64,000 bases of DNA from Luteimonas colneyensis (GTDB lineage Bacteria; Pseudomonadota; Gammaproteobacteria; Xanthomonadales; Xanthomonadaceae). The position numbers and the translations under genes were made by a program. Each line of letters opens with the position of its first letter. The stretch's first letter is position 1. The DNA is taken from positions 1 to 64,000 of the forward strand of contig NZ_JACSQJ010000008.1 of NCBI RefSeq assembly GCF_014836665.1, read 5' to 3'. Below are positions 34,722 through 42,394 of the stretch, one piece after another. A model generated the notes under the pieces. That model was given only the letters and a program-made list of their open reading frames with translations, was not told where the DNA came from and made no database searches.

Positions 34722-36032
34722 TCAGGCGGGCAGCACCAGGGTCACGCCCAGGCCGCCGCCTTCGCGGTTGGCCAGGGCGATGCGGCCGCCGTGGGCTTCG
34801 GCGATCTCGCGGCTGAGCGCCAGCCCCAGCCCGGTGCCGTGGCGCTTGGTCGAGTAGAAGGGCAGCAGCGCGTTGGCCAGCACGGGCTCGTTCATGCCGG
34901 TGCCGCGATCGAGCACGTCGATGCGCCAGCTGTCCGGCAGCCGCCGCAGCGCGAGGCGCACGTCGCCGGGCGCCGAGCCCGATTCGTGGGCGTTCTTCAG
35001 CAGGTTCAGCAGCGCCTGCTCCAGCTGCGCGGCGTCCGCCCGCACCTGGCCTTCCACGTGTCCCTCGATGCCGAAGTCGACCTGGCTGCGCAGCCGCTCG
35101 AGGAAGACGCGCCAGTCCACCGGCTCCAGCCGCGGCGCCGGCAGCTTGGCGAAGCGCGCGTAGTCGCGGATGAAGCCCTCGAGGTGGCGCGCGCGCTCCT
35201 CGATCGTGGCGAGGGCGGCCGGCAGGCGTTCGTGCTGGCCGCGGCGCAGCAGCTCGGCGCCGGAATGGGCCAGCGACGCGATCGGCGCCAGCGAGTTGTT
35301 GAGCTCGTGGCTGATCACCCGGATCACCTTCTTCCACACCTGCACTTCCTGGCGGCGCAGTTCGGCGGTGAGCTGACGCAGCAGCAGCAGCTCGTGGCGG
35401 CGGCCGTTGAGGCGGAACAGGCGGCGGGAGAGGTGGTAGATGTCCTCGTCGTCGTCGTCGCCGACGGTGAACATGCCGTCGCCGCCGCGCGCGAAGGCGT
35501 CGCGCATGGCTTCGGGCACGCGCTCGAGCAGCTCGGCGAAGGGCACGCCCTCGAGCCGGTGGCCGTCGCCGAGCAGCTTGCGCGCGGCAAGGTTGCCCAG
35601 CACCACGTGGCCGCCCGGATCGACCAGCAGCATCGCCACCGGCGTGTTCTGCACCATGGTGTCGAGAAGCAGTTCGCGCTGCACCAGGCGCAGGCGCTGC
35701 TCGCGCAGGGTATCGCCGAGCGCGCGGTGGCTGGCGACCAGATGCCCCAGCTCGCCGCCGCCTTCCCAGGACAGACCGAAGCTGTAGTCGCCGTCGCGGT
35801 AGCTGGCCACGCTGCCGGCCAGCGCCCGGAACAGCGAGTGCGCCGGCGCCAGCAGGCGCCTGACGTGGTACAGCAGCAGCGGCAGGGGCAGGGCGACCGC
35901 CACCGGCAGCGCGAGCCAGCGCGATCCCAGCCACGGCTCCAGCAGCAGCACCAGCGCGCCGGCGATCGCCATGTAGGCCAGGGCGACGGCCGTGAACGAG
36001 ACGCTCAGCGGCAGGCGCGGGAGACGTGCCAT
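34722..36032 (-). CDS. NtrY/NtrB-like sensor histidine kinase
   Basis: A 436-residue membrane kinase. Two N-terminal helices (about 10-32 and 38-56) enclose almost no periplasmic loop, so sensing is probably within the membrane or cytoplasm. A HAMP-like linker follows, then a PAS-like domain (about 118-225), the phosphorylated H242 in ISHELNNSLAPI, and the ATPase domain with N347 in NLLKNAHESG, DRGTGM (375-380) and GTGLGLAL (399-406). The HELNN H-box is typical of kinases paired with sigma-54 response regulators. Its start overlaps the regulator stop (TGATG), and it is the last gene of the exporter operon. Confidence 0.92.
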   Translation of the reverse strand: MARLPRLPLSVSFTAVALAYMAIAGALVLLLEPWLGSRWLALPVAVALPLPLLLYHVRRLLAPAHSLFRALAGSVASYRDGDYSFGLSWEGGGELGHLVASHRALGDTLREQRLRLVQRELLLDTMVQNTPVAMLLVDPGGHVVLGNLAARKLLGDGHRLEGVPFAELLERVPEAMRDAFARGGDGMFTVGDDDDEDIYHLSRRLFRLNGRRHELLLLRQLTAELRRQEVQVWKKVIRVISHELNNSLAPIASLAHSGAELLRRGQHERLPAALATIEERARHLEGFIRDYARFAKLPAPRLEPVDWRVFLERLRSQVDFGIEGHVEGQVRADAAQLEQALLNLLKNAHESGSAPGDVRLALRRLPDSWRIDVLDRGTGMNEPVLANALLPFYSTKRHGTGLGLALSREIAEAHGGRIALANREGGGLGVTLVLPA

Positions 36033-37378
36033 CAGTCGCGCCGGATCCCGAGCCGGTCCAGTCGCCGGTAGAGCGCCTGCCGCGACAGCCCGAGCTCCTG
36101 CGCCGCCTGCGCCAACACGCCGCCGTGGCGCGCCAGCGCGGCCTCGATCGCGGCGCGGTCCGGCTCGTCCACCGTGGACGGCGGCGCGGCCATCGGCACC
36201 GGCGCACGCGGCAGGCCCAGCGCGTCGGCGCGGATGTCCCCGTCCGCCGACAGCAGCGCCGCGCGCTGCACCACGTTGCGCAGCTCGCGCACGTTGCCCG
36301 GCCAGGCGTGGCGCAGCAGGGCGCGCTCGGCGTCGGCGGCCAGGCGCCGGCCTTCGGGCAGGAAGTGGCGCGCCAGCGGCAGGATGTCGTCGGGGCGCTC
36401 GGCCAGCGGCGCCAGCTTCAGCTCGACCGCGTTGAGCCGGTAGTACAGGTCCTCGCGGAAGCGGCCGTCGCGGATCATCGCCGGCAGGTCGGCATTGGTC
36501 GCGCTCACCACGCGCACGCGCACCTGGCGCTCGCGGTTGCCGCCCAGGCGCGCGAAGCGGCCGGTCTCCAGCACGCGCAGCAGCTTCACCTGGCCGGCCG
36601 CCGGCAGGTTGCCGATCTCGTCGAGGAACAGGGTGCCGCCGTCGGCGGCCTCGAACTTGCCCTCGCGCGCCTTGCCCGCGCCGGTGTAGGCGCCTGCCTC
36701 GGCGCCGAACAGCTCGGCCTCGATCAGCTCGCCCGGCAGCGCGCCGCAGTTGAGCGCGACGAAGGGTCCGTCCTTGACCATCGAATTGGCGTGGACGATC
36801 TCGGCGATCTTTTCCTTGCCCGATCCGTTCGGGCCGGTGACCAGCACCGGCAGTTCGGAGCGCGCGACCTGGCAGGCCAGCGACAGCAGGCGCTCGCTGG
36901 CCGGATCGGCGTAGACCACGCCGCGCAGGTCGTGGCCGCGCGACAGCGCGTCGCGACGGCGGCGCTCGGCGCCGCGGTGGCGGGCCAGCTCGCGCCGCGC
37001 TTCCGACAGCTCCAGCAGGTTGTTCACCGTCGCCAGCAGCCGGCGGTCGTCCCAGGGCTTGCCGAGGTAGTCGGCGGCGCCGGCCTTGACCAGGTCGACC
37101 GCCGACTCCAAGTGCGTCCAGGCGGTGAGCAGCACCACCGGCAGGTCGGGCTCCTGGCCGCGGATGGCATGGAACAGCGCGACGCCTTCGTCGCCCGAGG
37201 TGGTGTCGGCGTGGAAGTTCATGTCCTGCACCACCAGGTCGATGTCGCCGCGCCGCAGCCGCGCCAGCCCCTCGTCCGGCGACTGCGCGGCCACGGTGTC
37301 GATGTCGTGCAGCGAGAACAGCAGGTCCAGCGCGGTGGCGACGGCGGGGTTGTCGTCGATGATCAGGACGGTCGGCAT
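36032..37378 (-). CDS. Sigma-54-dependent response regulator
   Basis: A 448-residue NtrC-type activator. The receiver domain (about 3-118) has D8/D9, phosphoacceptor D52 (LVVQDMNF), T85 and K107. The AAA+ domain has Walker A GPNGSGKE at 182-189 in place of the common GESGTGKE, the sigma-54 contact loop GAYTGA (229-234, the Tyr variant of GAFTGA) and Walker B GGTLFLDEIG (247-256). A Fis-type helix-turn-helix ends the protein (AQAAQELGLSRQALYRRLDR). All parts needed to open a sigma-54 promoter are present. It lies in the operon that has such a promoter upstream, so autoactivation is likely. Confidence 0.94.
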   Translation of the reverse strand: MPTVLIIDDNPAVATALDLLFSLHDIDTVAAQSPDEGLARLRRGDIDLVVQDMNFHADTTSGDEGVALFHAIRGQEPDLPVVLLTAWTHLESAVDLVKAGAADYLGKPWDDRRLLATVNNLLELSEARRELARHRGAERRRRDALSRGHDLRGVVYADPASERLLSLACQVARSELPVLVTGPNGSGKEKIAEIVHANSMVKDGPFVALNCGALPGELIEAELFGAEAGAYTGAGKAREGKFEAADGGTLFLDEIGNLPAAGQVKLLRVLETGRFARLGGNRERQVRVRVVSATNADLPAMIRDGRFREDLYYRLNAVELKLAPLAERPDDILPLARHFLPEGRRLAADAERALLRHAWPGNVRELRNVVQRAALLSADGDIRADALGLPRAPVPMAAPPSTVDEPDRAAIEAALARHGGVLAQAAQELGLSRQALYRRLDRLGIRRD

Positions 37379-37388
37379 GGCTCCGGGA

Positions 37389-42291: not shown

Positions 42292-42307
42292 GCAAGCGGC
42301 GTGCCAA
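42292..42307 (-). promoter_or_regulatory. Sigma-54 (-24/-12) promoter of the exporter operon
   Basis: Read on the minus strand, the sequence is TTGGCACGCCGCTTGC, an essentially perfect match to the RpoN consensus (TGGCAC, N5, TTGC) with exactly ten bases between the GG and GC pairs. Transcription would start near 42281, about 30 bases before the membrane-fusion gene ATG. The operon encodes its own sigma-54 activator. Confidence 0.87.
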
Positions 42308-42342
42308 CTTCAAGTGCTTGATATGTGGACGTTTTTGCCAAG

Positions 42343-42394
42343 TGTCCGGGTGTCCGCGCGGACACCTCGCGCGTCCGCGCGGACGGCGCGGACG
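42343..42394. promoter_or_regulatory. Paired palindromes, likely enhancer sites for the sigma-54 regulator
   Basis: Two perfect dyads, GTGTCCGCGCGGACAC (42350-42365) and CGTCCGCGCGGACG (42372-42385), have centres 21 bp apart, that is two helical turns. Extra half-sites flank them: TGTCCGG at 42343-42349 and GCGGACG at 42388-42394. Their centres lie about 77 and 98 bases upstream of the predicted sigma-54 start, the usual place for an activator binding site. They also lie close to the glmS promoter region on the other side. Confidence 0.7.

Follow-up and report, generated by a model that had tools for sequence, protein, structure and literature searches.

An exporter operon with a predicted sigma-54 promoter, enhancer and NtrC-type activator of its own in Luteimonas colneyensis and its relatives

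Introduction

The macAB exporter genes of Escherichia coli and Salmonella are under the control of PhoPQ, according to the accessible part of PMC5985334. In Firmicutes, the Bce-type kinases, which are similar in build to the kinase described below, are reported to depend on their transporter (PMC5985334 and PMC3023708, both available in part). In gamma-proteobacteria, predicted sigma-54 promoters are enriched at FtsX-like permeases (COG0577), as stated in the accessible sections of a 2025 paper (PMC12316311). Here we describe an operon in a stretch of 64,000 nucleotides of Luteimonas colneyensis DNA (contig NZ_JACSQJ010000008.1, positions 1 to 64,000; the whole stretch is called the window below). 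The operon occupies positions 34722-42249 on the minus strand and encodes, in this order, a periplasmic adaptor, a 71-amino-acid protein, an ATP-binding cassette (ABC) ATPase, permeases 1 and 2, an NtrC-type response regulator and a histidine kinase. Where macAB answers to PhoPQ, this operon has a predicted sigma-54 promoter and its own NtrC-type system, and a comparison of sequences makes it likely that the operon is a dedicated, positively autoregulated exporter module. We found no description of the operon, its promoter or its relatives among the titles and abstracts listed in a literature search that also took in the S. maltophilia pump MacABCsm and COG0577 together with sigma-54; one may exist, since subscription papers lay mostly outside that search. 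The terms sought for the operon are absent from the text of PMC3162934.

The promoter and its upstream elements

The predicted promoter, TTGGCACGCCGCTTGC, is the sole exact match to TGGCACN5TTGC in the window and also the only site on either strand that scores at least 11 of 13; transcription is calculated to start at about position 42280. It contains the -24/-12 element, its GG and GC set the fixed distance apart, that is required in sigma-54 promoters activated by NtrC-type bacterial enhancer-binding proteins. The conservation of this element was followed in a sample built on the regulator, which was searched for in 120 genomes. At least 81 of these, that of L. colneyensis included, have an orthologue and three more show fragments; the orthologues among the matches listed for the 120 genomes score 566-968 bits at 65-100% identity, one of them being partial. 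The loci compared comprise 79 fetched and 80 named ones (Luteimonas, Lysobacter, Stenotrophomonas, Xanthomonas, Pseudoxanthomonas, Thermomonas, Massilia, Undibacterium, Pseudoduganella and others); the home genome was taken from the window, and genome G006 was omitted because its contig ends. The start of the adaptor gene lies within reach in the window and 53 of the 79 fetched loci (54 in all), as well as in 71 of the 80 named loci, and the upstream regions of these 125 loci reduce to 106 that are non-redundant at 90% identity. All 106 contain a promoter scoring at least 10 of 13, compared with 178 of 5300 shuffled sequences (3.4%).

Upstream of the promoter lies a site that the earlier, sequence-only reading of this DNA did not mention. 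It is an exact copy of WATCAANNNNTTR, which we take to be the consensus of the integration host factor (IHF), and the only one in the window. With at most one mismatch, and 16-17 bp before the TTGG of the promoter, such a site recurs in 80 of the 106 loci and in just 8 of the 5300 shuffles (0.15%). Further upstream are two palindromes, the putative enhancer. The same reading had described them as perfect and centred 21 bp apart at about -77 and -98, and so they are (18 and 14 bp); the 16-bp sequence that it quoted fits the first only, the second having three mismatches to it. Palindromes are frequent in this G+C-rich DNA: the window holds 26 of at least 14 bp (19.0 in shuffles), and its three close pairs compare with 38 in 40 shuffles. 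The pair alone is therefore not significant, and we rejected any judgement of its significance from the window by itself. GTGTCCN4GGACAC has its only exact copy in the home genome here, and three further places differ from it by one mismatch, the same number as in the control.

Conservation is more telling. Two or more TGTCCG/CGGACA half-sites are found in 87 of the 106 upstream regions (0.4% of shuffles) and a GTCC-N2-5-GGAC palindrome in 77 (1.8% of shuffles); more distant genera keep the half-sites in other arrangements. By conservation, and not by window statistics, the palindrome pair appears to stand beyond chance. The sequence-only reading had staked its claim on the palindromes or the -24/-12 element being conserved upstream of orthologous operons, and the claim survives on both, as does its RpoN promoter, which proves to be the best site in the window.

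The regulator and its dedication to the operon

The domains foreseen for the regulator, namely a receiver, a GAYTGA loop and a helix-turn-helix of the Fis type, are confirmed by Pfam and by the orthologues. GAYTGA, a variant of the GAFTGA-type loop, is present in 138 of 142 distinct regulators (no such motif was seen in the remaining four), and the helix-turn-helix segment SRQALYRR is unchanged in 140 of them, which is in keeping with the constant half-site. A strict composite pattern, in which GTCCN4GGAC and a sigma-54 element downstream of it are separated by 35-60 bases, was used to scan 76 genomes. It has one match each in 19 genomes, all beside the adaptor or small gene of this operon; the reversed pattern, as a control, gave eight matches in seven of the 76. 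The operon and its control loop are supported by sequence as conserved across relatives from Massilia to Xanthomonas.

Several points weigh against a dedicated and self-activating module. The strict pattern has no match in 57 of the 76 genomes, carriers of an orthologue included, so that dedication is shown only for 19. Five loci (L101, L102, L103, L110 and L111) have an orthologous regulator and no transporter in the fetched stretch, which is cut short in L102; the regulator may do other work there. Of 54 loci, 16 have the palindrome type singled out by the sequence-only reading and 21 have two clear palindromes. The IHF-type site has two or more mismatches in 26 of the 106 loci and is missing from the upstream regions of the S. 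maltophilia loci. It is important to point out that the upstream shuffles ignore shared ancestry, and that the same loci had been viewed before the half-site, the promoter score and the IHF offset were fixed. A scan of positions 34400-42600 gave no consensus match to a sigma-70-like promoter from which the first regulator molecules might be made. Finally, none of the operon genes encodes an outer-membrane channel, a negative confined to the operon since the genome was not searched for one.

These points also qualify the word 'self-contained', which the sequence-only reading had used. A block that would join signal, regulator, enhancer, promoter and exporter is supported; the single rpoN of the genome lies outside the operon, a few loci have the regulator without the transporter, and IHF and the outer-membrane channel would presumably be supplied from elsewhere as well. 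In outline, the picture of a sigma-54-controlled exporter with its own activator and enhancer is right, and it now has comparative support from the promoter in all 106 loci and from the 19 strict matches found nowhere but here.

In one genome (G110) we observed a paralogous operon, locus L113, with a regulator 46% identical and a distant adaptor, ATPase and permease, which suggests a wider family of such units.

Exchangeable permeases

Sequence comparison indicates that the chassis of the operon stays constant while its permease pairs are swapped between loci and, in some, increased in number. Between loci L057 and L064, adaptor and ATPase differ by 6% and the regulator by 7%, compared with 31 and 39% for the two permeases; between L137 and L144, the regulator differs by 5% and the permeases by 53 and 49%. 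Two or more permease pairs are present in 10 of the 80 named loci (L134, L142, L155, L156, L160, L169, L172, L182, L191 and L197), and L209 has three pairs too. They form tandem arrays of two to four pairs within the same operon, although in the four-copy loci the fetched sequence stops short of the ATPase and may hold only part of the first copy. In L160 and L182, up to three pairs go with a single ATPase.

A family of small proteins

The 71-amino-acid protein belongs to an undescribed family with members of 65-85 residues. An alignment of 37 members shows a constant W, LADAVP-RL and a C-terminal LP--FRVR; the family evolves fast, its ends being constant and its middle variable, and the ratio of non-synonymous to synonymous substitution rates (dN/dS) is 0.29-0.64 in 10 pairs. 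None of the matches in Pfam, NCBIfam, PHROGs or PDB was convincing, the best E-values being 0.03-0.3 for single members. Strong matches (E<=1e-12) occur once per genome in 35 of 72 genomes, and there is none in the 28 genomes that belong to the order's other families; weak profile matches elsewhere (five in as many genomes, E 0.002-0.005) were taken as noise. Within the Xanthomonadaceae, 67 of 247 genomes and 20 of 54 genera have the protein. Among the 80 named loci it is present in 28, and in none of those from Massilia, Undibacterium or Stenotrophomonas; L144, a metagenome-assembled genome labelled Xanthomonas, carries it and has a regulator only 5% from that of the Thermomonas locus L137. 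For 20 of the 67 genomes, including nine of the 11 weakest matches, the context was fetched, and in all 20 the gene stands beside the adaptor in this operon. Its place varies: it precedes the adaptor in L202, L203 and L204, directly follows the promoter in L153 and is a tandem duplicate in L198.

On the trees of the permeases the presence of the small gene changes 13-14 times, against six to seven times on those of regulator, kinase, ATPase and adaptor (FastTree, labels unshuffled). The small protein therefore seems to be part of the chassis, probably as a cytosolic accessory. The idea that it is permease-specific cargo was set aside, since its presence does not follow the permeases.

The kinase

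Of 138 kinases, 137 show two hydrophobic segments about 10 residues apart when scanned for hydropathy, their N-termini being taken from alignments, and 135 have the H-box HELNNSLAP; both counts include L101, a weak match (27%) that is perhaps not an orthologue. To judge by sequence, the kinase has a hairpin of two helices that offers too little space for a sensor domain in the periplasm, and no such domain is evident. Its co-variation with the permeases was examined in 102 loci by distance matrices and partial correlations, with regulator and ATPase as background and no permutation test. Permease 1 has a partial correlation of 0.88 with permease 2 and of about 0.7 with the adaptor; with the hairpin of the kinase the values are 0.13-0.21. 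Among the 249 closest pairs, the correlations with permeases 1 and 2 are 0.47 and 0.55 for the kinase core, and 0.21 and 0.25 for the hairpin. The hairpin itself seems to have been exchanged between loci: in L057 and L064 it differs by 73%, compared with 5% for the kinase core. These two loci looked like a joint exchange of permeases and hairpin, a view undone by L054, whose hairpin is like that of L064 (15% apart) and whose permeases are not (31 and 39% apart).

Layout and neighbourhood of the operon

The genes and predicted control elements are listed in Table 1. The seven-gene exporter operon on the minus strand, as first read from the sequence, is upheld by open reading frames and by families in Pfam and NCBIfam. 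The small gene and the ATPase gene overlap by one base, as do those of regulator and kinase; two bases separate adaptor and small gene, and the remaining three junctions have gaps of 10-16 bases. The operon is flanked by glmU and by the divergent glmS (ATG at 42443). The 159 orthologue loci have glmS in 89 cases and glmU in 105, and some other fetched stretches end before either gene; neither was found in the fetched stretches of the Massilia-type loci.

Table 1. Genes and predicted control elements of the exporter operon, with positions in the window
Feature	Positions	Strand	Basis or remark
Periplasmic adaptor (membrane-fusion protein), 433 residues	40948..42249	-	HlyD_3/HlyD_D23 (Pfam); RND_mfp subfamily TIGR01730 (NCBIfam), 130.3 bits, cut-off 94.9
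71-residue protein, undescribed family	40730..40945	-	Family alignment and profile searches
ABC ATPase, MacB/LolD/FtsE type	39951..40730	-	ABC_tran (Pfam); start at 40730 is one choice among several candidates
Permease 1	38638..39939	-	MacB_PCD and FtsX (Pfam)
Permease 2	37389..38621	-	MacB_PCD and FtsX (Pfam)
NtrC-type response regulator	36032..37378	-	Receiver, AAA+ domain with GAYTGA, Fis-type helix-turn-helix (SRQALYRR)
Histidine kinase	34722..36032	-	Two hydrophobic segments, PAS, HisKA (HELNNSLAP), ATPase
Sigma-54 promoter TTGGCACGCCGCTTGC	42292..42307	-	Exact TGGCACN5TTGC; score at least 11 of 13
IHF-type site TATCAAGCACTTG (exact WATCAANNNNTTR)	42311..42323	-	16 bp before TTGG; predicted
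Proximal enhancer palindrome, 18 bp, perfect, contains GTGTCCGCGCGGACAC	42349..42366		Centre at about -77; predicted
Distal enhancer palindrome, 14 bp, perfect, core GTCCGCGCGGAC	42372..42385		Centre at about -98; predicted

The proposed circuit and its alternatives

The membrane-hairpin kinase would, judging by the families of the two proteins, phosphorylate the NtrC-type regulator, and conservation of the TGTCCG/CGGACA palindromes suggests that the regulator binds them, about 55-77 bp upstream of the -24 box. IHF, to which the conserved consensus site points, may bend the DNA between palindromes and promoter, and the GAYTGA loop would open RpoN-RNA polymerase at the single promoter. One transcript would carry the MacAB-type exporter first, with regulator and kinase at its end; their position in their own operon would keep the off state tight and make the on state reinforce itself. 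The permease pair would set the cargo; from strain to strain it would be swapped or multiplied, with the regulator, ATPase and promoter kept constant. By analogy with the relatives of MacB, the most likely cargo is an amphiphile or peptide that perturbs the envelope, taken from the periplasm or inner membrane out through a TolC-type channel encoded elsewhere. What was a guess from one genome becomes a testable, family-wide regulatory unit of one promoter, enhancer, activator and exporter, to which an undescribed protein family is added. The permease swaps on a constant control system form a natural series that could separate the determinants of cargo from those of sensing in MacB-type pumps.

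NtrC-type regulators can have several targets, and the regulator could be a global envelope-stress regulator for which this operon is merely one of them; in the genomes where it has no match, the strict pattern would overlook sites that stand alone or are irregular. All 19 matches lie at this operon, however, and its own genome holds only one exact palindrome, and we consider such a global role highly unlikely. Very little probability also attaches to export of an endogenous product, with the pump releasing a peptide of the cell's own making, perhaps the 71-residue protein itself. Its rapid evolution between constant ends, its persistence in the operon despite differing positions, the tandem duplicate and the nearest ATPase model, the darobactin exporter protein DarD, would all fit. 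Yet Pfam reveals no modifying enzyme or protease among the seven genes, the presence of the small gene changes about half as often on the chassis trees as on those of the permeases, and the gene was not found in most named loci, including every one from Massilia, Undibacterium and Stenotrophomonas.

Another possibility is that the kinase lacks its own sensor domain and, as in Bce systems, senses through direct contact in the membrane how the permeases are working. Two-segment kinases and MacB-type permeases share an operon here, BceS likewise has two helices and a short loop (PMC3023708, available part), and L057 and L064 differ in permeases and hairpin alike. The difference between hairpins is also larger in 33 close pairs with swapped permeases (0.456) than in a further 108 pairs (0.269), but that between kinase cores is larger in the same proportion (0.171 vs 0.104). 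The Bce components are reported as co-evolved in the same part of PMC3023708, whereas the partial correlation between permease and hairpin is low here, and the higher correlation of the core is not what contact sensing would predict. L054 and L064 share a hairpin and not their permeases, as do L137 and L144 (hairpin 13% apart), and the cytosolic PAS domain offers an alternative sensor. Taken together, the co-variation results appear to be evidence against Bce-like contact, short of proof, and we regard it as unlikely. Quite unlikely, in its full form, is a further elaboration: a Gram-negative export platform whose sigma-54/IHF chassis stays the same (the activator, the core of the kinase, ATPase, adaptor and the 71-residue protein as a dedicated cytosolic coupling protein) and takes exchangeable, stackable permease cassettes, with one ATPase for three or more pairs and the small protein reporting the state of the pump to the sensor-less kinase. 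The dedicated exporter module remains the reading we prefer.

Comparison with known systems

Like MacAB-TolC and other type VII (MacB/FtsX) exporters, the operon combines MacB_PCD and FtsX permeases with an adaptor of the HlyD type and an ATPase of the FtsE/LolD/MacB type. Unlike in MacAB, the ATPase and the two permeases are encoded separately, and the ATPase stays far below the cut-off of the one-protein MacB equivalog PRK10535 (202.5 bits, cut-off 966). The best NCBIfam model for the ATPase is DarD of the darobactin exporter DarBCD (264.6 bits, cut-off 375), with weaker matches for the adaptor and permease 2; no operon protein reaches the equivalog cut-off of DarB, DarC or DarD in NCBIfam, and no darobactin biosynthesis gene is among the seven genes, the genome not having been searched for one.

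The Bce modules of Firmicutes (BceAB-BceRS) likewise place an ABC transporter next to a two-helix kinase and a regulator. The operon described here differs in being Gram-negative, in its NtrC-type regulator, predicted sigma-54 promoter, adaptor and two permeases (Bce modules have one, BceB), and in the small extent to which kinase and permeases co-vary. The circuit is textbook sigma-54 control joined to a pump of the MacAB kind, and a statistical link of this type had been reported in 2025 (PMC12316311). The accessible part of that paper gives the enrichment and mentions neither this operon nor the enhancer, IHF site, small protein and permease arrays that go with it; what is new here is the resolved unit, together with its IHF-type element, its small protein family and the cassette behaviour of its permeases.

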